NCBI GenBank assembly: GCA_028871455.1
Contig: JAGWNF010000004.1
Coordinates: 62,001 to 126,000 of the forward strand
Direction of reading: 5' to 3'
Origin: Alphaproteobacteria bacterium
Lineage (GTDB): Bacteria; Pseudomonadota; Alphaproteobacteria; ATCC43930; CGMCC-115725
Length of the DNA: 64,000 bases
Shown: positions 10,325 through 20,171 of the stretch, in pieces
How positions within the stretch are numbered: the first letter of the stretch is position 1
Layout: every line of letters starts with the position of its first letter
Notes under the pieces: model-generated
Database searches by the model: none
Seen by the model: only the letters and a program-made list of their open reading frames with translations
What the model was told of the DNA's origin: nothing
Made by a program: the position numbers and the translations under genes

Positions 10325-10371
10325 CCCCCCTCCCATTCCCTCCCCCTCGAGGGGGGTTAGGGTGGGGGTGA
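10325..10371. repeat. Dispersed palindromic element, copy 1
   Basis: C-rich head, CCCCTCGAGGGG centre and G-rich tail (TTAGGGTGGGGGTGA). It lies between the terminator and the 3' end of gor and is the first of about twenty related copies between 10.3 and 20.2 kb. Confidence 0.85.
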
Positions 10372-10385
10372 GATGACACCGCGCC

Positions 10386-11762
10386 CTATTCCGCCGCCTT
10401 GGCCTTGGGGTCGGGCAGCTTGGTGCGGAGGGTGACGAATTCCTCCGACGCCGTCGGATGGATGCCGATGGTGCGGTCGAATTGCTTCTTGGTGGCGCCG
10501 CAGGTGAGCGCGACGGCGAGGCCGCCGATGATCTCGGGCGCGTCGGGCCCGATCATGTGCGCGCCGAGCACGCGGTCGCTGGCGCGGTCGACGATCAGCT
10601 TCATCAGCGTCTTCTCGTCGCGGCCGGAGAGCGTGTTCTTGAGCGGCCGGAAGAGCGTGCGATAGACGTCGATCGCGGCGAACTGCGCGCGCGCCTCGCG
10701 CTCGGTCAAGCCGACGGCGCCGATGGTGGGATTGGAGAACACCGCGGTCGGCACCACGTCGAGCCGGGCGCTGGTCGGATTGTCGTTGAAGAGGGTCTCG
10801 GCCAGGGCGCGGCCTTCGGCGATCGCGGTCGGCGTCAGGTTGAGCATGTCGGTGGCGTCGCCGATGGCGTAGACGTTGGGCACCGAGCTGCGCGACCACT
10901 CGTCGACCCTGATCGCGCCGGTCTCGGGATGGAGCGCGACGCCGATCTCGGCGAGGCCCATGCCGGTGGTGTTGGGCAGCCGGCCGGTGGCGTACATGAC
11001 GACATCGGCCGAAAGCTCGCCGCCCGCCTTGGTCGTCAGGTTGAAGCCTTCGCGCTCCGGCTCGATCGCCGCGATCTCGGTGCGGGTGTGGATGACGATG
11101 CCGCGGGCGCGCATCGCCTGCGCCAGGTGAACGCGGACGTCGTCGTCGAAGCCGTTGAGCAATTCCTCGCCGCGGATCACCATCTGCACCGCGGCGCCGA
11201 GGCCGTGGAAGATGCCGGCGAACTCGACGGCGATGTAGCCGCCGCCGACGATGACGATGTTGCGCGGCAGGGTCGGCAGGTCGAGCGCCTCGTTCGACGA
11301 GATGACGTGCTCGACGCCGGGGATCTTCGGCGTCACCGGATGGCCGCCGATGGCGAGCAGGATGTGGGCGGCGGTCAAGCGCTGGCCGCCGACCTCGATG
11401 GTGTGCGCGTCGAGCAGCTTGGCGCGGCCTTCGATCAGCCGCGCGCCGGCATCGGCCAGCATCTTGCGGTAGACGCCTTCGAGCCGCGAGGTTTCCTGAT
11501 TCTTCGCCGCGATCAGTTCGGGCCAGGAATGCGCCGGCGGCGCGACGTGCCAGCCATAGCCGGCGGCATCCTCGACGTCGTCGGCAAAGTGCGCGGCATA
11601 GACCAAGAGCTTCTTCGGCACGCAGCCGCGCAACACGCAGGTGCCGCCGACCCGGCCCGCCTCGCAGATGGCGACGCGGGCGCCGTGGCTCGCGGCGCGG
11701 CGCGAGGCGGCGACGCCACCCGAGCCGGCGCCGATGGTGAAGAGGTCGAAGTCGTATTCCAT
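10386..11762 (-). CDS. gor: Glutathione-disulfide reductase
   Basis: 458 residues. Cytoplasmic FAD enzyme that reduces GSSG to GSH with NADPH. The FAD-binding GAGSGG is at residues 11-16. The redox disulfide Cys42/Cys47 sits in GGTCVLRGCVPKK. The NADPH fold reads VGGGYIAVEFAG, and the C-terminal proton relay is GIHPTASEEF. Length is normal. ATG at 11762. The gene is flanked on both sides by the same palindromic repeat (copies 1 and 2). Confidence 0.95.
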   Translation of the reverse strand: MEYDFDLFTIGAGSGGVAASRRAASHGARVAICEAGRVGGTCVLRGCVPKKLLVYAAHFADDVEDAAGYGWHVAPPAHSWPELIAAKNQETSRLEGVYRKMLADAGARLIEGRAKLLDAHTIEVGGQRLTAAHILLAIGGHPVTPKIPGVEHVISSNEALDLPTLPRNIVIVGGGYIAVEFAGIFHGLGAAVQMVIRGEELLNGFDDDVRVHLAQAMRARGIVIHTRTEIAAIEPEREGFNLTTKAGGELSADVVMYATGRLPNTTGMGLAEIGVALHPETGAIRVDEWSRSSVPNVYAIGDATDMLNLTPTAIAEGRALAETLFNDNPTSARLDVVPTAVFSNPTIGAVGLTEREARAQFAAIDVYRTLFRPLKNTLSGRDEKTLMKLIVDRASDRVLGAHMIGPDAPEIIGGLAVALTCGATKKQFDRTIGIHPTASEEFVTLRTKLPDPKAKAAE

Positions 11763-11798
11763 GCGCGGATGCTAGCGGAAAGTGGCGGCGGGGTCAGG

Positions 11799-11849
11799 CC
11801 CCCCTCCCATTCCCTCCCCCTCGAGGGGGGAGGGTTAGGGTGGGGGTGA
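11799..11849. repeat. Dispersed palindromic element, copy 2
   Basis: Same type as copy 1 (CCTCCCATTCCCTCCCCC head, CTCGAG centre, GGGTTAGGGTGGGGG tail), between the small membrane protein gene and gor. Confidence 0.85.
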
Positions 11850-11868
11850 ATGCGAGCAACAACCACAC

Positions 11869-12141
11869 TCACGTCGTCTGGCTGCCGGTGACGGCGAGGT
11901 GGTCGGAGATGGTGTTGAGGCGCTTCAGGATGCCGAGCACCGTGGCGTAGATGACGAAGAAGTAGAAGAAGTAGTTGACGATCGGGATCAGCGACAGGAT
12001 CACCCAGAGCGCGACGCTGTGGCCGAGGCGCTTGGCGAGGAAGCCGTTGCCGATGGCGAAGCCGGCCCACAGCAGCACCAGGCCGCTGAACAGCGGCAGC
12101 GACGTCACCGCCTGGTCCATCATCCATACCGTGTCACTCAT
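11869..12141 (-). CDS. Small inner-membrane protein, 90 aa, unknown function
   Basis: ATG at 12141 with an AGGGAG ribosome site 8 bases upstream. Two hydrophobic helices (about 15-33 and 45-70), the second unusually aromatic (VNYFFYFFVIYATVLGIL). No recognisable domain. It stands alone between repeat copies. Confidence 0.6.
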   Translation of the reverse strand: MSDTVWMMDQAVTSLPLFSGLVLLWAGFAIGNGFLAKRLGHSVALWVILSLIPIVNYFFYFFVIYATVLGILKRLNTISDHLAVTGSQTT

Positions 12142-12262
12142 CCGTGTCTCCCTGGGTTGGGGCGGCGCGCGAGCGCGCGCGGAAAGGGTCGGCTCTTCTA
12201 TAACCGGAAAGCCGGCCGGCGGTCGCGAAGATTGGTGTGACGGGATGGTGACGGCGTGAAGG

Positions 12263-12303
12263 CCCCTCACCCCGACCCTCTCCCCGCAAGCGGGGCGAGG
12301 GAG
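12263..12303. repeat. Dispersed palindromic element, copy 3
   Basis: CCCCTCACCCCGACC head followed by the stem CTCTCCCCGC / GCGGGGCGAGGG with an AA loop. Confidence 0.85.
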
Positions 12304-12315
12304 AAAATCGGCGGC

Positions 12316-12771
12316 CTAATACTTGACGTGCAGGGCGATCCGGGTCGCGGGCGAGGCGACGGGGAACGCGGCCTCGGCGAAGGTCGGCCGCGAGATCACG
12401 GCGCGGATGCCGTTCGACAGCGCGTAGCCGTCGAGCGGATAGCCGAACCAGTTGGTCTTGAAGTGGCCGAGCTTTTCCTCGTCGTGATAGCAGCCGAGGG
12501 CATAGGTGCCGGGCGGCAGGTGATCGAAGCTGACGACGATCGGCGCAGTCGAGGCCTTCAGCTTGAGGCGGCGCAGCGCAAAGTCGCCGTCGGGAAAATG
12601 ATCGGGCGTGGCGAAGAGCGCGACGTAGACGTCGCCGCGATCGCTGTGAACGCCGGTGATGGTGACGGTGAGCGTCGCCGCGATGGCCGGCGATGCGAGG
12701 GCGAGCAGCGCCAGGCCGAGCCCCAGCACGCCGACAAGCCGCCGCGCGGCATTCCTCGCTGTGACGAGCAT
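12316..12771 (-). CDS. DUF2141 domain protein, exported
   Basis: 151 residues from the ATG at 12771. A signal peptide is visible (basic start, LVGVLGLGLALLALA, cleavage after ASPAIA). The mature part is one DUF2141 domain: LTVTITGVHSDRGDVYVALF, then DHLPPGTYALGCYHDEE and a NWFG..EGY-like region near the C-terminus. Probably periplasmic. DUF2141 proteins have no firm function; some are linked to the cell envelope. The reading frame extends upstream without a signal-like start, so I rejected the longer form. Confidence 0.85.
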   Translation of the reverse strand: MLVTARNAARRLVGVLGLGLALLALASPAIAATLTVTITGVHSDRGDVYVALFATPDHFPDGDFALRRLKLKASTAPIVVSFDHLPPGTYALGCYHDEEKLGHFKTNWFGYPLDGYALSNGIRAVISRPTFAEAAFPVASPATRIALHVKY

Positions 12772-12989
12772 GAACCGGAAGCTCCCTCGGAACCGACCGG
12801 CCAACCGGGCCGGACGGCGCCATCTATAGGCAAGGCGGGGTGGCGGGGCGAATGACATTCGCGCGAGCGGACGCGGCAATGACGGCGACGGTCACTTGCG
12901 GAAGACCGTGAAACTCGCCGGAAATGTCGACGGCAGCGACGGCGGCTCGGGCGCCGGGGTGTGAATGGCGGTGAGTGGGCTGCGAGATT

Positions 12990-13040
12990 CACCCCCTCCC
13001 TGACCCTCCCCCCTCGAGGGGGAGGGTTGGGGTGGGGGGC
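12990..13040. repeat. Dispersed palindromic element, copy 4
   Basis: Head ACCCCCTCCCTGACCCT, centre CCCTCGAGGG, tail GGGTTGGGGTGGGG. It is followed by about 45 bases that recur, with changes, beside copy 13 (16722-16768). Confidence 0.85.
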
Positions 13041-13057
13041 TTGCGGCGGCGGTAGCG

Positions 13058-13804
13058 TCAGCAGCTGCGAGTTCGCCAGCGGATGACCCCCTCACCCTGC
13101 CCTCTCCCCCTTTCAGGGGGCGAGGGAGAAAAAGAAGACGGGGGCGAGGGATTTTCCGTATCCGCGGCTGGCGACCCCTCACCCTGCCCTCTCCCCGCAA
13201 GCGGGGCGAGGGTTGAAGGAATACCGAGCGGGGCGCCGGCGGCGAGGCTGGCGCCCGTCTCGGCCAGGCGCTTGAGGCGTTCGAGCAGAATGGTGCGCGC
13301 GTCGCGGCCGTCCTTGCGCGCATAGGGCGGCGGCACCGCCGGCACGATCTTATCGAAGACGCCGAGGTGGCGCGCCAGGGCGTCGATCGCGCGCGACTTG
13401 CTGTGGAGCTTGACACGCAGGCCCGCACCCTCGCGGGGCGCCGCGAGCTCGGCGATGGCGGCGCGGTGATGCGGCGAGATCTGGTCCTTGGGACGGAGCG
13501 TGATGTCGTCAGCGCCGGTCCAGTCGAGCACGTCGCCGATATCGGCGAAGGCGACGCGGGCGAGCTCCAGGAGCACGCGCTCGCGCGCGACCTGGGCGCG
13601 GCGCGCTTCGGCGGCGCGGCCCTGGCGGATGGCTTCGGCGATATAGGGCAGCCGGCGCAGACGGCAGGCGCTCTCGGTGGCGCCCTTCGCCGAATAACCG
13701 GCGCGGATGGCGGCCTCGCGGCCGATGCCGGTGAGCAGGAACTGCTCGACGAATTTCTGCTGCCGCACATTGAGCGGCCGCTTGCGGTTGCGGCGATAGG
13801 CCAT
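13058..13804 (-). CDS. Phage-type terminase small subunit, orphan, with repeat-derived C-terminal tail
   Basis: 248 residues. The first 175 match the terminase small-subunit family: a DNA-binding N-terminus LNVRQQKFVEQFLLTGIGR, then AAIRAGYS..SACRLRRLPYI, and later VFDKIVP. From about residue 185 the protein is a translation of palindromic repeat copies 6 and 5 (APLAGRGQGEG and PSPPERGRGQGEG), so the natural C-terminus has been replaced. No large terminase, portal or capsid gene is nearby: this is a remnant or a domesticated orphan. A plausible original tail (FPASFTVFRK then stop) survives out of frame around 12892-12975. Confidence 0.8.
   Translation of the reverse strand: MAYRRNRKRPLNVRQQKFVEQFLLTGIGREAAIRAGYSAKGATESACRLRRLPYIAEAIRQGRAAEARRAQVARERVLLELARVAFADIGDVLDWTGADDITLRPKDQISPHHRAAIAELAAPREGAGLRVKLHSKSRAIDALARHLGVFDKIVPAVPPPYARKDGRDARTILLERLKRLAETGASLAAGAPLGIPSTLAPLAGRGQGEGSPAADTENPSPPSSFSPSPPERGRGQGEGVIRWRTRSC
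13087..13127. repeat. Dispersed palindromic element, copy 5
   Basis: CCCCTCACCCTGCC head, stem CTCTCCCCC / GGGGGCGAGGG with a TTTCA loop; lies inside the terminase reading frame. Confidence 0.85.
13175..13213. repeat. Dispersed palindromic element, copy 6
   Basis: CCCCTCACCCTGCC head, stem CTCTCCCCGC / GCGGGGCGAGGG. It lies inside the terminase reading frame, at the point where family resemblance stops. Confidence 0.85.
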
Positions 13805-13844
13805 GGGACTCCTTCGCGTTGCGTTTGTCGCAGGCGGCGAGATT

Positions 13845-13930
13845 CACCCCTCACCCAGCTTGGCGTAAGGCTCGCCCACAATTGGTCTCGCCAACGCCAA
13901 GCAACCCTCTCCCTCAAGGGGAGAGGGGCA
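13845..13930. repeat. Dispersed palindromic element, copy 7, with nested hairpin
   Basis: The CCCCTCACCC head and the CTCTCCCTC-AAGG-GGAGAGGG body are split by a second inverted repeat, CTTGGCGT (13859-13866) and ACGCCAAG (13894-13901). The nested hairpin sits at the head/body boundary. Confidence 0.75.
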
Positions 13931-13935
13931 ATTTT

Positions 13936-14043
13936 TTATGAACCCTCCCCCTTCGAGGGGGAGGAAATGGGAGGGAGCGTCCAGCCGATGCGGTGAAGCG
14001 CCCGCAGAACCTGGCCCGCTTTCGCGGCCGGCCAGACGCTCAC
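13936..14043 (-). pseudogene. hicA: hicA toxin remnant, truncated by a palindromic repeat
   Basis: 35 codons. The GTG at 14043 overlaps the hicB stop as GTGA, the usual spacing for coupled TA genes. Residues 1-23 (KAGQVLRALHRIGWTL) match the start of HicA toxins. From codon 24 the sequence is repeat copy 8 (PPISSPSKGEGS, then stop). The conserved GSH motif carrying the catalytic His, expected soon after this point, is gone, so the toxin should be dead. Confidence 0.8.
13943..13976. repeat. Dispersed palindromic element, copy 8
   Basis: AACCCTCCCCC-TTCGA-GGGGGAGG with the tail AAATGGGAGGG; forms the 3' end of the broken hicA. Confidence 0.8.
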
Positions 14044-14252
14044 GCCGGCGCGAACAGATCGCGCGCTTCGGCCGGCAGCGTCTCGCCGTGCTCGATGCGA
14101 TCGGCGATCACGCGGAGAGCCAGGGCGGTCGCCTTGATGCGCGCCTCGGCTTCGCTTTGGCCATAGGCGAGAACGCCCGGCAATGCCGGCACCTCGCCGA
14201 CCCACCTTCCGTCCGCTTCGCGTTCGGTCTCGATCCTGAGCATGGTCGTCAA
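14040..14252 (-). CDS. hicB: HicB-type antitoxin, short form
   Basis: 70 residues. The HicB partial RNase-H-like fold is seen in DGRWVGEVPALPGVLAYGQSEAEA, followed by a helix (ATALALRVIADRIEHGE). There is no C-terminal ribbon-helix-helix, as in short HicB proteins. It precedes the truncated hicA (4-base GTGA overlap), so this antitoxin is an orphan and may now be decaying or acting on another HicA. Confidence 0.85.
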   Translation of the reverse strand: MTTMLRIETEREADGRWVGEVPALPGVLAYGQSEAEARIKATALALRVIADRIEHGETLPAEARDLFAPA

Positions 14253-14401
14253 TTTACCGCCTCCTAGCTTATCACGGTATGAGCGCCCCTAATTTTCGCT
14301 CGCGCCACAGCCGCCTTGCCGATGTTCGTGTTTTGTTCCATAATCGGGGCGGAAAGTCAAGGGAAATCAAGAGACGGTCACGGACCTCGCCTTGCAACAA
14401 G

Positions 14402-14418
14402 TGTGTATGATATACACA
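14402..14418. promoter_or_regulatory. Palindromic operator of the intact hicAB operon
   Basis: TGTGTAT-GAT-ATACACA: 7-bp arms and a 3-base centre, ending on the A of the hicA ATG. Ribbon-helix-helix HicB proteins repress by binding such sites; position over the start region suggests autoregulation of hicA transcription. Confidence 0.65.
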
Positions 14419-14609
14419 TGAATAGCCGCGACGTGATCCGCGCGATCGAGGCGGATGGCTGGCGGCTGATCCGGGTGCGCGGGAGCCACAACCAATATCG
14501 CCACGGTACCAAGCCCGGTCTCGTGACGGTTCCGCATCCGAAGAAAGAGCTGCCCAAAGGCACGTTGCGAGGCATCGAGCGGCAAGCGGGCATTCGGCTG
14601 AACAGGTGA
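14418..14609 (+). CDS. hicA: HicA mRNA interferase toxin
   Basis: 63 residues, a double-stranded-RNA-binding-like fold. The catalytic His is in RVRGSHNQYRH, and the family tail reads PKKELPKGTLRGIERQAGI. The ATG at 14418 directly follows the operator; the open frame upstream of it does not resemble HicA. Four bases separate it from hicB. It should cleave translated mRNA unless bound by the HicB downstream. Length and motifs are intact. Confidence 0.92.
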   Translation: MNSRDVIRAIEADGWRLIRVRGSHNQYRHGTKPGLVTVPHPKKELPKGTLRGIERQAGIRLNR

Positions 14610-14613
14610 AAGC

Positions 14614-15003
14614 ATGCGGCACTACATCGGCCTGATCCATAAGGAAGCGGACAGCGACTTCGGCATCTCGTTTCCGGATTTTCCCGGCTGCGTCTCCGCC
14701 GGCAGTACGCTCGACGAGGCGCTCGCCATGGGTCGCGAGGCGCTCGAAGGCCACATTGAAGCGATGGCCGAAGCGGGCGAGCCGATTCCTGAACCGTCCG
14801 ACGTCGATACGGTGATGGAGGATCCGGAGAACCGCGACGGCGTGGTCGTGCTCGTGCTGGCGCCGGACCTTGGCGGAAAAGCGGTGCGCGTGAACGTGAC
14901 GCTGCCCGAAGGATTGCTCCAGCGGATCGACGAAGCGGCGCCGAACCGTTCGCGCTTTCTCGCGGAAGCGGCGGAGAAATTGTTGGAGCGGAAGAGAGCA
15001 TGA
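14614..15003 (+). CDS. hicB: HicB antitoxin with ribbon-helix-helix domain
   Basis: 129 residues. The N-terminal HicB fold is seen in DFGISFPDFPGCVSAGSTLDEA. The C-terminal DNA-binding RHH is seen in KAVRVNVTLPEGLLQRIDEAA..NRSRFLAEAA. It neutralises HicA and represses the operon, probably through the palindrome at 14402-14418. Its stop overlaps the next ORF as ATGA. Confidence 0.92.
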   Translation: MRHYIGLIHKEADSDFGISFPDFPGCVSAGSTLDEALAMGREALEGHIEAMAEAGEPIPEPSDVDTVMEDPENRDGVVVLVLAPDLGGKAVRVNVTLPEGLLQRIDEAAPNRSRFLAEAAEKLLERKRA

Positions 15004-15197
15004 ACGAACCGATTGAGAAACGCACGACTGGCACCTGGCAGGCGCTTGTGCTCGCCGATGCGAACCTGGCCGAGTTGGTACGAAAGGGATGGCTCACGCT
15101 GCCGACGCTGTCGGCTGAAGGTGCACCACCCAGCCTGCCCGTGGCGAAACTTGACGAGCTGCTCGCCGAACTCAGGGATGATCGCGACGCGCGTTGA
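15000..15197 (+). CDS. Short ORF coupled to hicB, 65 aa, possible antitoxin fragment
   Basis: The ATG overlaps the hicB stop (ATGA), so translational coupling is possible. The sequence WQALVLADANLAELVRKGWL...LDELLAELRDDRDAR resembles, only loosely, the C-terminal tails of Phd-like antitoxins. It may be the surviving tail of another antitoxin joined to the hic operon. Function unknown. Confidence 0.45.
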   Translation: MNEPIEKRTTGTWQALVLADANLAELVRKGWLTLPTLSAEGAPPSLPVAKLDELLAELRDDRDAR

Positions 15198-15215
15198 TCG
15201 TACGCCAAACACCGG

Positions 15216-15548
15216 ATGAGTAAGAACTCGGCGGCGGAGCTGCACGTGCCGGCGAACCGGATCAGCGCCATATTCCACGGCACGCGCGGCATCACCGCCG
15301 ACACGGCGATGCGCCTCGGCCGCACCTTCAACACGACGGCGGAATTCTGGCTCAATCTCCAGACGACGCACGACTTGACCAAGGCGCAGGCGGAAGTGGG
15401 CGCCGAGATCGAGCGCCGCGTGCGGCGTAAAACGCCACAACTCGGAGCGTCTTTGTATAATGTTTTTGATCTGCGCCGCAAAGACCAAAAAATAATTTCT
15501 AATTACCTCGTTTCGATCATCCTCACTTCATCATCTTCCAAACCATAG
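15216..15548 (+). pseudogene. HigA-family antitoxin lacking its N-terminus, with foreign C-terminus
   Basis: 110 codons. Residues 1-75 match the middle of HigA/VapI HTH antitoxins: MSKNSAAELHVPANRISAI, then HGTRGITADTAMRLGR and TTAEFWLNLQ. The usual first 20-25 residues (PGE..REE..LG) are missing, and nothing like them lies upstream. After about residue 75 the sequence turns AT-rich and no longer resembles HigA; it runs into the antisense methylase fragment. No HigB toxin is adjacent. Confidence 0.7.
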
Positions 15549-15712
15549 AGTTCAAAAATTTCGTTGTTTAATTCGGCTTCCTGCCGAGCGAGATCCGACT
15601 CCACCTTGGCGAGTTCCTTCTCCAGGTCCGTAATCTGCTTAACCAACGCGATATCAAACGGCATCTCAGAAATCTTTCCATGTTTATCCTTTTTTATTTC
15701 GCGAGAACGTAG
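15503..15712 (-). pseudogene. 3' fragment of an N6-adenine DNA methylase (restriction-modification type)
   Basis: About 70 codons ending at the TAA at 15503. The translation contains REIKKDKHGKISEMPFDIAL, then LVKQITDLEKELAKVES, then AELNNEIFELYGLEDDEV. This is the C-terminal coiled coil and terminal ELYGL motif typical of Eco57I-like and related R-M methylases. There is no start, and the frame breaks at about 15710 where a DUF262 fragment begins on the other strand. The stretch is clearly AT-richer than its surroundings. Confidence 0.7.
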
Positions 15713-15872
15713 CGCTTGCCTGAAATGCAGCGTCGCTACGTCTGGCGGTCGACGCGCGTGCGCGATCTTATGGACTCTCTTTATCGCGGCTACCCATCTG
15801 GCGCGATTCTACTTTGGGAAACAGACGAGGTGGTCCCACTTCAGCCAATGGCTGTTGCGCAGCGAGCAAACC
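15713..15872 (+). pseudogene. 5' fragment of a DUF262 (GmrSD-like) protein
   Basis: The translation from the TTG at 15716, LPEMQRRYVWRSTRVRDLMD, continues SLYRGYPSGAILLWETDE. It carries the R-x-YVW and G-x-L-W signatures of the DUF262 N-terminal domain, known from modification-dependent nucleases and other defence proteins. A stop sits just before it, where the first residues should be. It ends abruptly at the glmS-tail fragment. Junctions on both sides show it is a scrap. Confidence 0.7.
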
Positions 15873-15878
15873 CATATC

Positions 15879-16033
<155 letters not shown>

Positions 16034-16072
16034 GTCCGCAGCGTCGTCCCTCACCCGCGAGGCATCGGCCCA

Positions 16073-16149
16073 CCCCTCACCCTCCCGCTGCGCGGGGCGA
16101 GGGAATAATTGAAGACGCCCCTCACCCTCCCGCTACGCGGGGCGAGGGG
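16073..16149. repeat. Dispersed palindromic element, copies 10 and 11 in tandem
   Basis: Two near-identical units, CCCCTCACCCTCCCGCT(G/A)CGCGGGGCGAGGG. They start at 16073 and 16118, 45 bases apart, and both are followed by an (A)CAATTGAAG-like tail. Local tandem duplication. Confidence 0.85.
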
Positions 16150-16215
16150 ACAATTGAAGCGGGCGGAGAGAAAGAGTCAGCGCGCCGTCACGCGCCGCGA
16201 CAACGGGAAGCGGTC

Positions 16216-16416
16216 TTACACCGCCTCGAATTCCAGAGCCGTCGGCTTCAAATTCGGCGCGCGCTTGGAAAGGTCGAGCATCTCGATGCCCACGACTTCG
16301 TTCCGCTCGTTGTAATCCAGGATTACGCCCGGCGAGACTTCTGCCGATTCGACGATTTTGGAATCGTCGAGCCGCAAATACAACGCGTCAGCCTTTTTAT
16401 CGACATGCAGTCTCAT
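16216..16416 (-). CDS. DUF2283 family protein
   Basis: 66 residues, the whole DUF2283 domain: MRLHVDKKADALYLRLDD, then SPGVILDYNERNEVVGIEML. DUF2283 genes often sit next to DUF4258 genes and behave like small toxin-antitoxin pairs, though this is not settled. Here the ATG overlaps the stop of a 5'-truncated DUF4258 gene (ATGA). Confidence 0.9.
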   Translation of the reverse strand: MRLHVDKKADALYLRLDDSKIVESAEVSPGVILDYNERNEVVGIEMLDLSKRAPNLKPTALEFEAV

Positions 16417-16578
16417 AACTTGCCTTTCATGGCTCGATCGAAGAATACGCTTACAACCCGTTTAGGCTCAACGGCCGTGTTCACGGCAACGCGCAAGACC
16501 CGGCCACCGAACTCGGGAATTCGCCGGAAACGGCGTTCGACCGTCGGATCGCTCGGATCGCCGCTTCGCGGCCCGCCA
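16413..16578 (-). pseudogene. DUF4258 protein, 3' half only
   Basis: The translation DPTVERRFRRIPEFGGRVLR runs on through VVSVFFDRAMKGKL to a TGA that overlaps the DUF2283 ATG. This is the C-terminal half of a DUF4258 (BrnT/RelE-like fold) protein. There is no start codon, and a stop in the same frame lies near 16585, right beside repeat copy 12. The partner of DUF2283 has lost its 5' half. Confidence 0.65.
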
Positions 16579-16589
16579 AGTCAAAGCAG

Positions 16590-16616
16590 CCCTCTCCCCC
16601 TCACGGGGGCGAGGGT
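16590..16616. repeat. Dispersed palindromic element, copy 12 (headless)
   Basis: Only the stem CCTCTCCCCCTCACGGGGGCGAGGG; abuts the broken 5' end of the DUF4258 gene. Confidence 0.8.
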
Positions 16617-16671
16617 TCGGTAGCTTTGCGGAGCAACCGCGCATTCGATGTTAGCGCCGAGCGCGGCACGT

Positions 16672-16721
16672 CACCCCCACCCTAACCCTCCCCCCTCGAG
16701 GGGGAGGGTATGGGAGGGGGG
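16672..16721. repeat. Dispersed palindromic element, copy 13
   Basis: CACCCCCACCCTAACCCT head, CCCTCGAGGG centre and a GGTATGGGAGGGGGG tail. It is followed by a 45-base segment shared with copy 4. Confidence 0.85.
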
Positions 16722-16768
16722 CTTGCGGTGGCGGTCGCATCAGTGGCAGTGAGTTCGCGAGCGGACGG

Positions 16769-16823
16769 CCCCTCACCTGCCGACCGCTCTTCGCGGTCGG
16801 CCTCCCCCTCACGGGGGCGAGGG
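16769..16823. repeat. Dispersed palindromic element, copy 14, with nested hairpin
   Basis: The CCCCTCACC head and CCTCCCCCTCACGGGGGCGAGGG body are separated by CCGACCGC-TCTTC-GCGGTCGG, an extra perfect 8-bp hairpin. Same insertion position as in copies 7 and 15. Confidence 0.8.
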
Positions 16824-16853
16824 TACCAACGCGCAGTCGCGCGCCAGCACCCT

Positions 16854-17186
16854 TCACGCCGCCGGCTTGAAGATGATGCGGCCGCCTTTGCGCGTCTTCG
16901 CGCGCGGCCGGACGACGATCTCGACGTCGCGGCCGAACGCCGTCAGAAAGCCCATCAGGCGATCGACCGAATATTCGCGGAAGTGGCCATTGAACAGACG
17001 CGAGACTTCGGGCTGGCTGATGCCCATGCGATCGCCGGCCTCCGCCTGGGTCAGCTTGCGTGCCGCCGCGAGCCGGTAGATTTCGGAAACGATCTGCGCC
17101 TTGAGCAGGTGACCCTTAGCATCCGGCAGGCCGAGATCGGCGAAGATGTTGCCGCTGCCCGGCTCGATTTTTGCCCGTCGCGCCAT
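16854..17186 (-). CDS. HigA-type antitoxin, XRE HTH
   Basis: 110 residues. HTH seen in LTQAEAGDRMGISQPEVSRLF, followed by VDRLMGFLTAFGRDVEIVVRP, the typical XRE tail of phage-derived Gp49/HigB2-linked antitoxins. It starts 5 bases after the stop of the toxin gene, the reversed toxin-antitoxin order normal for hig loci. It probably represses the promoter at 17574-17602. Confidence 0.88.
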   Translation of the reverse strand: MARRAKIEPGSGNIFADLGLPDAKGHLLKAQIVSEIYRLAAARKLTQAEAGDRMGISQPEVSRLFNGHFREYSVDRLMGFLTAFGRDVEIVVRPRAKTRKGGRIIFKPAA

Positions 17187-17191
17187 GTCGC

Positions 17192-17566
17192 TTACTCCTT
17201 TGCAAACCGTGCCGCATGATCGAAAGCGGCATCCCGCAGGCGGCGCTCGATCAGCTCTAGATCGCGCTGCGGCGTGGCAATGCCGCGCTTCGATTTCTTC
17301 TGAAAGGCGTGCAGCACGTAAATCGCGTCCTTGAACCGCACCGTGTAAACCGCCCGATAGGCGTTGCCGTCGAATTCCGCCACCAATTCCACCGTTCCGG
17401 CGCCGAAGCCTTTGAGCGGCTTCGCCGCTGGCGGATGCTGACCGGTCTGCGCCAGAAACAACGCGAAGCCGAAACCGTCCTGCACGCGCGGCGGAAAGCG
17501 CTTGTAGTCGCGCTTGCTCGACCCGACCCAGAAAAGCGGGCGAAGCGGCGGCGCGGCGCTCGTCAT
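17192..17566 (-). CDS. HigB/Gp49-family RelE-like toxin
   Basis: 124 residues. Core signature YRAVYTVRFKDAIYVLHAFQ, then KKSKRGIATP and ERRLRDA, the RelE/HigB fold with its basic active-site stretch. The expected action is cleavage of mRNA on the ribosome. The ATG at 17566 lies about 8 bases after the -10 box, so the message may be nearly leaderless. The antitoxin follows directly. Confidence 0.88.
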   Translation of the reverse strand: MTSAAPPLRPLFWVGSSKRDYKRFPPRVQDGFGFALFLAQTGQHPPAAKPLKGFGAGTVELVAEFDGNAYRAVYTVRFKDAIYVLHAFQKKSKRGIATPQRDLELIERRLRDAAFDHAARFAKE

Positions 17567-17573
17567 CGCGCGA

Positions 17574-17602
17574 TTTATATTATGAGTTTATACTCATGTC
17601 AA
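17574..17602 (-). promoter_or_regulatory. higBA promoter with operator in the spacer
   Basis: On the minus strand: TTGACA (17602-17597), 17-base spacer, TATAAA (17579-17574). The spacer contains the inverted repeat ATGAGT-TTAT-ACTCAT (17582-17597, plus-strand reading), a natural binding site for the XRE antitoxin. It is the best sigma-70 promoter I see in the window. Confidence 0.85.
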
Positions 17603-17606
17603 GGTG

Positions 17607-17662
17607 GCCCTCACCCTCCCACCGATGGTGGGCCCCTCCCTCTCCCGCTTCGCGGGCGAGGG
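17607..17662. repeat. Dispersed palindromic element, copy 15, with nested hairpin
   Basis: CCCTCACCCT head, nested CCCACC-GAT-GGTGGG, then CTCTCCCGC / GCGGGCGAGGG. It ends 12 bases from the glmS stop. Confidence 0.8.
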
Positions 17663-17673
17663 AAGACAAAGGC

Positions 17674-19503
17674 CTATTCCACCGTCACGCTCTTCGCCAG
17701 GTTGCGCGGCTGGTCGACGTCGGTGCCCTTGTGCACCGCGACGTGATAGGCCAGGAGCTGCACCGGGATCGCGTAGAGCAAGGGTGCGACGAAGGGATCG
17801 CAGCGCGGCACCTCGATCTCGTGCGCCGACTGGCCGTTGAGCCGTGCCAGGCCCTCGCGGTCGGAGATCATCATCACCTTGCCGCCGCGCGCCAGGACTT
17901 CCTGGACGTTCGAGAGCGTCTTGTCGAAGAGCGCGTCCGACGGGGCAAGCACCACAACCGGCACGTTGTCGGAGATCAGCGCGATGGGCCCGTGCTTCAT
18001 CTCGCCGGCGGCGTAGCCTTCGGCGTGGAGGTAGCTGACCTCCTTCAACTTCAAGGCGCCTTCGAGCGCCAGCGGATAGGCGGTGCCGCGGCCGAGATAG
18101 AGCACGTCGCGCGCGCCGGTTTCGACCAGCCATTCGGCCATCGCCTCGATGCGCGCGTCGTGCGCCAGGACGTCGGCGGCGCGCTCGGGCACTTCGGTGA
18201 GCGCCAGGGTGAGATCGCCCTCGCGCTTGGCGTCGATGGCGCCACGCGACCGGGCGAGCGAGATCGCGAGACAGGCGAGGACGACGAGCTGGGTCGTGAA
18301 GGCCTTGGTCGAGGCGACGCCGATCTCGGGACCGGCCATGGTCTGGAACACCGCGTCGGAGGCGCGGGCGATCGAGCTTTCGGGCTGGTTGACGATCGAC
18401 AGGATGCGCGCGCCCTGTGATTTCGCGTAGCGCAGCGCCGCGAGCGTGTCGGCGGTCTCGCCCGATTGCGAGATGAAGAGCGCGAGGGTGTTCCTGGGCA
18501 CGAGGCCTTCGCGGTAGCGGAACTCCGACGCGATGTCGACCTCGCACGGCAGGCGCGCCAGGCCCTCGATCCAATAGCGCGCGATCAGGCCGGCGTTGTA
18601 GGAGGTGCCGCAGGCGACGATGGCGATGCGCTCGATCGATTTCAGATCGAAGGGCAGCTTGGGCAGGTGGACCGAGCGCGTCGCCGGATTGAAGAGCGCG
18701 CGCAGGGTGTCGCCGATCACCGCCGGCTGCTCGAAGATCTCCTTTTTCATGAAATGCGGATGGCCGGCCTTGCCGATGAGCGCGTCGGAGAGCGCGGTCT
18801 TGCGGATCTCGCGGTTGGCGATGCGGTTCTCGGCGTCGTAGATGGTGGCGCCGTCCTGGCTCACCACCGCCCAGTCGCCTTCCTCGAGATAGACCAGATC
18901 CTGGGTCAGCGGCGCCAAGGCCAGCGCGTCGGAGCCGACATACATCTCGCCGGCGCCATAGCCGATGGCGAGCGGCGAGCCGCGGCGGGCGCAGATGAGG
19001 CTGTCGTGATGGCCGGCGAAAAGCATCACCAGCGCGAAGGCGCCGTGGAGACGGGCGAGCGCGCTCGCCACCGCCTCCTGGGGCGAGGCGCCGCCGTGGA
19101 GATAGCGCGTCAGCAGCATGGCGACGGCTTCGGTGTCGGTTTGGGTTTCGAATTTGTAGCCGGCGGCCGTGAGCTCGGATTTGAGCTCGGAGAAATTCTC
19201 GATGATGCCGTTGTGGACGACGGCGACGCGGTCGGTGGCGATCGGGTGGGCGTTGGTCTCGTTGGGCACGCCGTGGGTCGCCCAGCGGGTGTGGCCGATG
19301 CCGATGCGGCCGGTGACGGGTTCCTTCGCCAGGCGGCGGGCGAGATTGTCGAGCTTGCCCTCGGCGCGGCGGCGGTCGATGTGACCGTTGACCAGCGTGG
19401 CGATGCCGGCGGAATCATAGCCGCGGTACTCGAGGCGCTTCAGGCCTTCGAGCAGCAGCGGCGCCGCCTCGCCCTTGCCGACGATGCCGACAATGCCGCA
19501 CAT
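17674..19503 (-). CDS. glmS: Glutamine--fructose-6-phosphate aminotransferase
   Basis: 609 residues, normal length. Makes glucosamine-6-phosphate, the first step to UDP-GlcNAc for peptidoglycan and LPS. The N-terminal glutaminase has Cys2 after Met (MCGIVGIVG) and HTRWATHG. Two SIS domains follow (CGTSYNAGLI, ISQSGETADTLAAL), and it ends [13 protein letters not shown]. The start at 19503 is fixed by the Met-Cys pair. The start codon overlaps the stop of the DUF559 gene (TGATG). The 3' end is the classic Tn7/genomic-island target and here is followed by the island remnant. Confidence 0.97.
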   Translation of the reverse strand: MCGIVGIVGKGEAAPLLLEGLKRLEYRGYDSAGIATLVNGHIDRRRAEGKLDNLARRLAKEPVTGRIGIGHTRWATHGVPNETNAHPIATDRVAVVHNGIIENFSELKSELTAAGYKFETQTDTEAVAMLLTRYLHGGASPQEAVASALARLHGAFALVMLFAGHHDSLICARRGSPLAIGYGAGEMYVGSDALALAPLTQDLVYLEEGDWAVVSQDGATIYDAENRIANREIRKTALSDALIGKAGHPHFMKKEIFEQPAVIGDTLRALFNPATRSVHLPKLPFDLKSIERIAIVACGTSYNAGLIARYWIEGLARLPCEVDIASEFRYREGLVPRNTLALFISQSGETADTLAALRYAKSQGARILSIVNQPESSIARASDAVFQTMAGPEIGVASTKAFTTQLVVLACLAISLARSRGAIDAKREGDLTLALTEVPERAADVLAHDARIEAMAEWLVETGARDVLYLGRGTAYPLALEGALKLKEVSYLHAEGYAAGEMKHGPIALISDNVPVVVLAPSDALFDKTLSNVQEVLARGGKVMMISDREGLARLNGQSAHEIEVPRCDPFVAPLLYAIPVQLLAYHVAVHKGTDVDQPRNLAKSVTVE

Positions 19504-19988
19504 CAGAGCACCGGAGGCGCCGAGACGCGCCGACTCTTCTTTAGGCCCCTCACCCCAGCCCTCTCCCCCTTCGGGGGCGAGGGAGTAGAGCGATCCTTCG
19601 TTACCCTCTCCCCGCCTGCGGGGAGAGGGAAGGGTGAGGGGTCGGCGAGCGCGGATTCGATGGCCGCCAGCACGCCCGGCAGATTGTCGTTCACGTCGTT
19701 GTTCCAGAAGCGGATGACACGATAGCCGTGCGCCGCAAGCGTTCGACTGCGCGCCGCGTCGCTCGACGCCTGGGCCGCATGCTGACCGCCATCGAGCTCG
19801 ACGACCAAACGCCGCAACGGACAGGCGAAATCGACGATGTAATGACCGATCAGCAGCTGGCGGCGGAACTTGGCGCCGGCGAAGCCGCGCGCGCGCAGCG
19901 CGCGCCACAAGCGCTGTTCGACATCCGTCTGATGGCGCCGCAGCTCGCGGGCTCGGACCGTCGTCGACGCGTCGGGGCGACCGCGCAT
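19503..19988 (-). CDS. DUF559 (Vsr-like nuclease fold) protein with repeat-derived tail
   Basis: 161 residues from the ATG at 19988. The core is a normal DUF559 domain: RARELRRHQTDVEQRLWRAL, GAKFRRQLLIGHYIVDFAC, VELDGGQH and YRVIRFWNNDV, with the catalytic Asp/Glu positions present. After NLPGVLAAIESALADPS the tail is translated from repeat copies 17 and 16 (PFPLPAGGERV, PSPPKGERAGVRG). The stop overlaps the glmS ATG as TGATG. The gene sits between glmU and glmS, so glmS translation may be coupled to it. Confidence 0.82.
   Translation of the reverse strand: MRGRPDASTTVRARELRRHQTDVEQRLWRALRARGFAGAKFRRQLLIGHYIVDFACPLRRLVVELDGGQHAAQASSDAARSRTLAAHGYRVIRFWNNDVNDNLPGVLAAIESALADPSPFPLPAGGERVTKDRSTPSPPKGERAGVRGLKKSRRVSAPPVL
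19546..19584. repeat. Dispersed palindromic element, copy 16
   Basis: CCCCTCACCCCAGCC head, CTCTCCCCC-TTC-GGGGGCGAGGG stem; coding for the DUF559 tail. Confidence 0.85.
19603..19641. repeat. Dispersed palindromic element, copy 17, reversed
   Basis: ACCCTCTCCCCGC-CT-GCGGGGAGAGGG stem followed by AAGGGTGAGGGG, i.e. the head on the other side. Confidence 0.85.
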
Positions 19989-19997
19989 GGCCGCCCT

Positions 19998-20026
19998 ACC
20001 CCTCACCCCGTTTCGGGGGCAAGGGT
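19998..20026. repeat. Dispersed palindromic element, copy 18 (partial)
   Basis: ACCCCTCACCCCGTTTCGGGGGCAAGGGT, just upstream of the DUF559 start. Confidence 0.75.
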
Positions 20027-20044
20027 GAAAAGGAAACGCCCGGC

Positions 20045-20087
20045 TCCCTCGCCCCGCGCAAGCGGGGAGAGGGTTGGGATGAGGGGT
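20045..20087. repeat. Dispersed palindromic element, copy 19, reversed
   Basis: TCCCTCGCCCCGCGCAAGCGGGGAGAGGG stem with a TTGGGATGAGGGG tail. Confidence 0.8.
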
Positions 20088-20133
20088 CATTGAAATTCGT
20101 TTCGACCATCCGCAAGCGCGCCCTGCCGCACGA

Positions 20134-20171
20134 CCCCTCACCCTGCCCTCTCCCCCTTCGGGGGCGAGGGT
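20134..20171. repeat. Dispersed palindromic element, copy 20
   Basis: CCCCTCACCCTGCC head, CTCTCCCCC-TTC-GGGGGCGAGGG stem; last copy in the window, downstream of glmU. Confidence 0.85.

Follow-up and report, generated by a model that had tools for sequence, protein, structure and literature searches.

Palindromic repeats in the linker of an orphan terminase small subunit gene, with a probable native C-terminal tail left out of frame

Orphan genes for the small terminase subunit (TerS) are a hallmark of phage satellite islands (PICI). In TerS proteins, DNA binding resides in an N-terminal region, oligomerisation in a central one, and contact with the large subunit, TerL, in a C-terminal segment, as laid out in the available text of PMC6854486. 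Described there is also a TerS kept by an alphaproteobacterial host, gp1 of RcGTA (gene 1, with TerL as gene 2), which has no N-terminal DNA-binding domain and whose C-terminus matters for TerL contact. Palindromic repeats inside ORFs have been described as well, slightly more than 10% of them at ORF ends; these are intragenic REPs and Rickettsia palindromic elements (RPE), with GTAG/CGTC superfamilies (available text of PMC3733652). In Bradyrhizobium, the palindromic repeats Br-REP1 and Br-REP2 lie near gene 3' ends, according to the accessible part of PMC5082802. Our literature search on orphan TerS found no paper on such genes, as judged by the listing, and the search on intragenic REPs with a frameshift returned nothing related.

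The window, i.e., the whole 64-kb stretch of DNA analyzed here, belongs to a genome of 3,015,319 bases in 51 contigs (G000), and three other genomes of the same genus were examined (G001, G002, and G003). The minus-strand ORF 13058-13804 (248 aa) codes for a TerS. Residues 11-151 were matched to Terminase_2 (PF03592) in a profile search (4.4e-23; 82.9 bits, curated cut-off 26.1), and phrog_51 (terminase small subunit) was matched as well (5.8e-24). When a profile of the window TerS and its two orthologues was compared with solved structures, three distinct sequences were matched, all named terminase small subunit (best 3zqp, E 2.2e-5), and the matched chains include the helix-turn-helix part. 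In the AlphaFold model, built on a shallow alignment of 4 rows, an N-terminal helix-turn-helix was predicted with high pLDDT (helices 13-25, 28-34, and 42-51); confidence is limited to the N-terminal part (residues ~11-60, block means 88-93), and the mean pLDDT is 29-36 from residue 191 onward. The features of the locus are the following.

13262..13804, minus strand: TerS body, residues 1-181, predicted N-terminal helix-turn-helix and central region (PF03592, phrog_51, AlphaFold)
13215..13261, minus strand: native linker, residues ~182-196, with a counterpart in the orthologues (NAGAPLG..PS; orthologue alignment)
13176..13214, minus strand: palindromic repeat copy translated in frame, residues ~197-210 (repeat profile, sequence)
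13127..13175, minus strand: stretch between repeats, with AADT in common with G003 and PSPPSSFSPSPP in common with G001 (orthologue alignment)
13089..13126, minus strand: palindromic repeat copy, residues ~227-239, at which the body and tail frames part; its loop is one base longer than in the corresponding G001 copy (species comparison)
13058..13060, minus strand: stop codon of the present ORF (ORF listing)
12992..13038, minus strand: third palindromic repeat copy, beyond the stop and open in the tail frame (repeat profile, frame check)
12895..12963, minus strand: native tail HTPAPEPPSLPSTFPASFTVFRK of the C-terminus, in another frame than the body (counterparts at L036:4416-4484 and at the end of the L037 ORF)
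12892..12894, minus strand: native stop codon, in the tail frame (ORF listing, tail comparison)
12316..12822, minus strand: DUF2141 gene, conserved downstream neighbour of TerS (Pfam, tblastn)
14418..15003, plus strand: HicA (14418-14606) and HicB (14614-15003), upstream neighbours, likewise present in G001 and G003 (Pfam, tblastn)

The initial annotation had the protein translated from repeats after about residue 185. Two copies are indeed translated inside the ORF, and the repeat-coded part begins only near residue 197: residues 182-196 (ETGASLAAGAPLGIPS region) are matched by counterparts in the orthologues and are thus not repeat-derived. From ORF calling alone, the gene would pass as a 248-aa terminase, and its repeat-coded end would go unnoticed.

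That this TerS is an orphan was borne out by the family match above together with the TerL searches. With C23 proteins as queries, one of them TerL, no TerL or portal match was obtained in the window, and none was obtained in six other orphan-TerS stretches of the genus (L035, L036, L037, L047, L048, and L049). Elsewhere in the window genome, PF03237 and phrog_2 searches identified one TerL, on contig C23 (L034:8191-9660), where a tandem TerS pair precedes it and portal and protease genes follow. Its frame is broken in the C-terminal part; the counterparts in G001, G003, G010, and G019 read on (by eye). Two more orphan TerS lineages were found in the genus. The first (contig C29 in G000, C40 in G001) shares its neighbours between these genomes and also with contig C6 of G003, in which a shorter TerS relative remains, and in the second (C56 in G001, C72 in G002) the neighbours are common to both genomes.

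L035:2070-2606, L049:671-1195, L048:4897-5343, and L047:224-718: further orphan TerS genes of these two lineages, with no TerL match in their stretches
L084:19431-19796: shortened C29/C40-type TerS relative in G003

Side-by-side pairs of TerS matches are common in the family (L039-L043 from G010 and G019; L034, L038, L045, and L046); a TerL match was present in L034, L038, L042, L043, L045, and L046 and absent from L039, L040, and L041. In five stretches from other genera of the family (L014, L015, L016, L017, and L028), the TerS match starts only near residue 57-66, and these proteins seem to have no N-terminal helix-turn-helix.

The neighbourhood of the window TerS is shared between species: genes for a gor-like protein, DUF2141, a UPF0150-like protein, HicA, and HicB flank it in the window, G001, and G003 (tblastn). 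The neighbours scanned comprised HicAB, the UPF0150-like gene (below cut-off), DUF2141, DUF2283, a HTH_37/Gp49-family pair, and metabolic genes. The earlier statement that no other phage gene lies nearby holds for structural genes, none of which was found among the neighbours scanned; the HicAB, Gp49, and HTH genes also have relatives in PHROGs. Between the window and G001, HicA and HicB are 97% and 96% identical, above the values for TerS (67%) and DUF2141 (73%), and a recent exchange of HicAB is one reading of this; in G003, the identities to the window are 65% (HicA) and 57% (HicB). As orphan TerS genes are typical of phage satellites, the protein could belong to a PICI-like island and redirect the packaging of a helper phage. 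We hold this to be very improbable: no integrase, AlpA-like regulator, or primase was present among the neighbours scanned, the gene has the same set of neighbours in three species, and close relatives were missing from the phage records and viral contigs searched. All TerS relatives in phage records (20) and plasmid records (2) were below 60% identity, and the viral contigs gave one locus at 28%, with the best 80 of 472 relatives at 41% or less.

Orthologues of the window TerS were found in two of the three other genomes of the genus examined, at 84% (G003) and 67% (G001) identity; G002 has other TerS genes only. All three species retain an open, HMM-intact body, and each has its own set of inserts between body and tail. 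The window has two B-type palindromes and one A-type, and G001 has tandem partial copies and one palindrome. In G003, there are an A-type palindrome, an in-frame tandem repeat of a short peptide (GHDEGV/GHDDGV; linker at L036 ~2120-2240) that adjoins a palindrome, and palindromes holding an insertion sequence (IS). The G001 ORF carries the body, repeat-derived residues, and tail in one frame and ends in STFPPGFALPPK. The G003 body runs into the IS (L036:2267-4232, contig C7; 1966 bp with 12-bp inverted ends), which lies inside a palindromic repeat and carries an IS1595-family transposase (PF12762, 4.2e-41), and past the IS the same frame ends in HTPPAEPPSPGRTFPPGFTLGRE. The IS is flanked by an 8-bp target duplication, CTTGAGGG, which is part of the palindrome. 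The length of the IS plus the duplication is divisible by 3, so body and tail are in a common frame once the element is taken out. The element also encodes a protein of 199 aa that was matched by neither Pfam nor PHROG. In the C29/C40 orphan lineage, TerS of C40 in G001 has a repeat-coded end (...WREVFKKQPSPPEGEREG) and the counterpart on C29 in the window genome ends in WREIVGAKR with no repeat, so a second orphan TerS has independently acquired repeats at its end.

An orthologue free of inserts, with the tail directly after the domain, was not found. All three orthologous loci carry inserts, so the ancestral junction was not seen; the search of GTDB genome contigs for such an orthologue gave 3 loci, and among 43 genomes of the order, 15 had TerS and none a further close orthologue. 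Among the best 80 of 472 TerS relatives on viral contigs, neither the tail motif nor a clear repeat tail was present, and the one loose match to the repeat pattern (L159) was not repeat-like.

In a frame other than that of the body, 12892-12972 (minus strand) encodes the peptide TAIHTPAPEPPSLPSTFPASFTVFRK followed by a stop, ending in STFPASFTVFRK. A tail of this type (PASFTVFRK), surviving out of frame, had been noticed in the initial annotation, and both orthologues end in related sequences, RTFPPGFTLGRE in G003 and STFPPGFALPPK in G001, each followed by a stop; inserts stand before the tail in every case. Distant TerS paralogues end with no such tail. The likeness could in principle be due to chance, with the repeat-coded end being the gene's own end, and the comparison of the window with G001, taken alone, is weak enough to allow this (793 of 20,000 shuffles as good). 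The other two comparisons speak against it: between the window and G003, there are 15 identities in 25 residues, a score reached by 0 of 20,000 shuffles, and for G003 and G001, 2 of 20,000 shuffles were as good. In addition, the tail motif stands exactly three codons from the stop at all three orthologous loci and, at that distance, nowhere else among 98 DNA records (747 kb, with overlapping views). A chance likeness is thus hardly credible. The window and G003 tails agree in 15, 20, and 14 of 25 codons at the first, second, and third codon positions, respectively, with NG86 dN/dS of 0.367/0.801; this pattern, over only 25 codons, suggests coding sequence. Judged by these sequence comparisons, the out-of-frame peptide is the native C-terminus of TerS.

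The entry of the repeats into an older gene and the accompanying frameshift, as first proposed, are supported by the related tails of both orthologues and by the species-specific inserts. The first repeat of the window keeps the frame: beyond it come AADT and PSPP residues, matching the orthologues. The loop of the second repeat has 5 nt, against 4 nt in the G001 copy, and beyond it the frames of body and tail differ; the frame change apparently sits at this copy with its one-base-longer loop. Both frame breaks, in the TerS tail and in TerL, could be assembly errors in an assembly of 51 contigs. On that account, the gene would be intact in the organism, and the real protein would be the body, three repeats, and the native tail. 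No stop interrupts the tail frame between the repeat and the native stop, and the break in TerL is a second one in the same genome, both of which fit an error. However, a palindrome with the identical 5-nt loop is present elsewhere in G001 and G002, which makes it a known variant, not an isolated odd base run, and a simple sequencing error less likely. We therefore rate an assembly or sequencing error as rather unlikely.

In every TerS pair compared, dN was lower than dS. The NG86 values (dN/dS) for the body were 0.105/0.228 (window and G003), 0.267/0.425 (window and G001), and 0.244/0.393 (G003 and G001); those for TerL-linked TerS were 0.152/0.604 and 0.188/0.775, and those for the other orphans were 0.140/0.439 (C29/C40) and 0.163/0.388 (C56/C72). 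These ratios indicate that the body is under purifying selection, weaker than in TerL-linked TerS by NG86 alone; among the TerS genes compared, NG86 places the window lineage under the least constraint. YN00 values were obtained for two pairs only, 0.079/0.627 for the window and G003 (ratio 0.13) and 0.130/0.693 for C29/C40 (ratio 0.19); in this single possible comparison they point the opposite way, with the window lineage no looser. A relaxed constraint on the window TerS would therefore be based on NG86, with YN00 against it.

Selection on the body is also what a domesticated protein would show, i.e., an orphan TerS whose body keeps a cellular DNA-binding role, with a dispensable tail and tolerated C-terminal repeats. 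Consistent with this, three orphan lineages are syntenic across species with open bodies and dN below dS: the window locus in G000, G001, and G003; C29/C40 in G000 and G001, shortened in G003; and C56/C72 in G001 and G002. In a tree of 59 rows, 18 of 19 bacterial-family rows were separated from the 40 viral-contig rows (support 88/97), although the tree was midpoint-rooted, the bootstrap was unsettled, and the viral rows were 40, in listing order, of 80 that are themselves the best 80 of 472. Against domestication, the window lineage is the one least constrained by NG86, and the tail shows conservation across species, strongest at second codon positions (20/25), which speaks for its past use. 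We regard domestication as possible though unlikely. Improbable in our view is the more elaborate proposal that a TerS lineage distinct from viral TerS and retained at three syntenic chromosomal places of one genus was domesticated as cellular DNA-binding proteins, with linker palindromes of varying loop length in the window lineage switching between translation with and without the native tail.

The repeats themselves are palindromic stem-loop units with visible inverted halves, of the form CCCTC.CCCC-loop-GGGG..AGGG. By profile, 16 copies were found at 10326-20170 of the window and none in the other 54 kb. The exact pattern occurs at 21 distinct places in the genome (34 rows, both strands), 13 of which cluster within 8.4 kb (C42:73812-82170, corresponding to 11.8-20.2 kb of the window). 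The repeat-rich stretch extends from a Pyr_redox gene to glmS-/glmU-type genes and includes HicAB and the HTH_37/Gp49 pair. Twenty more stretches of G000 and G003 were examined, mostly picked around copies far from TerS genes; palindromes in these adjoin ordinary unrelated genes, e.g., glmU, asnB-like, and phaR-like ones; the gene names were given by eye from translations, with Pfam support only for the glmU- and glmS-type domains of the window. As in REP-type elements, several dispersed, mostly intergenic copies were found, and in the window genome the copies are clustered.

A partnership of the repeats with TerS, like that of REP and RAYT, was also considered. In its favour are the 13 of 21 genomic places that fall in the 8.4 kb around the window TerS, and the spacing at TerS loci of the genus: 8 of the 11 examined, several of them mutual orthologues, have a repeat 51-196 bp downstream of the TerS domain. 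Among predicted genes of the same stretches, 4 of 12 TerS genes had a repeat near the 3' end, compared with 24 of 138 other genes, or 24 of 105 when the window was trimmed to 9-21 kb; the gene picks for these counts were imperfect and missed the L037 orphan TerS as well as the second TerS gene in both L045 and L046. The partnership was rejected because TerS genes were not clearly above their neighbours, the repeats occur elsewhere by ordinary genes, and 5 of 6 TerS stretches from other genera have no repeat. The clustering was treated as regional, which leaves the 8 of 11 TerS loci unexplained.

The explanation we favour, and consider moderately probable, is that of a vertically inherited orphan TerS whose linker was colonised by REP-like palindromes and which is now losing its tail, probably as a decaying remnant; the history is drawn from three orthologous loci only. 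The gene would have kept a fixed position (HicAB, UPF0150, TerS, DUF2141) during its vertical inheritance in a single alphaproteobacterial genus, and the comparison of three species shows that the linker ahead of the native tail repeatedly took up short REP-like palindromes. As long as the inserts were in frame, the product would have consisted of the body, a repeat-coded linker, and the native tail, as in G001 and in the IS-free reading of G003. In the window, body and tail frames would have parted at the repeat with the different loop length, leading to an early stop in repeat-coded residues and loss of the tail. As the C-terminus of phage TerS contacts TerL, the present product would not recruit TerL and might keep DNA binding or oligomerisation; most likely, the gene is a remnant under relaxed constraint. 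The three species thus provide a record of palindromic repeats entering a gene linker with the old C-terminus readable beyond, a case in which repeats appear to lengthen proteins and may then break them. The locus also adds to several orphan TerS lineages kept on bacterial chromosomes with no adjoining packaging partner.

Compared with the known systems, the window TerS shares with phage TerS of PF03592/phrog_51 its sequence family, the predicted helix-turn-helix, and the solved relatives, and differs in having no adjoining TerL or structural phage gene and in its repeat-coded C-terminus. Like gp1 of RcGTA, it is an alphaproteobacterial TerS kept by the host; unlike gp1, as described in the available text of PMC6854486, it has an N-terminal DNA-binding domain and no TerL neighbour. 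The repeats resemble Br-REP1 and Br-REP2 as alphaproteobacterial palindromes near gene 3' ends, and the consensus given in the accessible part of PMC5082802 differs from the CCCTC...GAGGG palindromes of the window. From the intragenic REPs and RPE of the GTAG/CGTC superfamilies, as presented in the part of PMC3733652 available, the window repeats differ in that neither the GTAG nor the CGTC end occurs within the 16 aligned copies (by eye). Repeat-invaded ORFs are thus already known; less usual here are the host gene, an orphan phage TerS, the native tail that apparently survives out of frame, and its documentation in three species, in each of which it is recognisable past the inserts.
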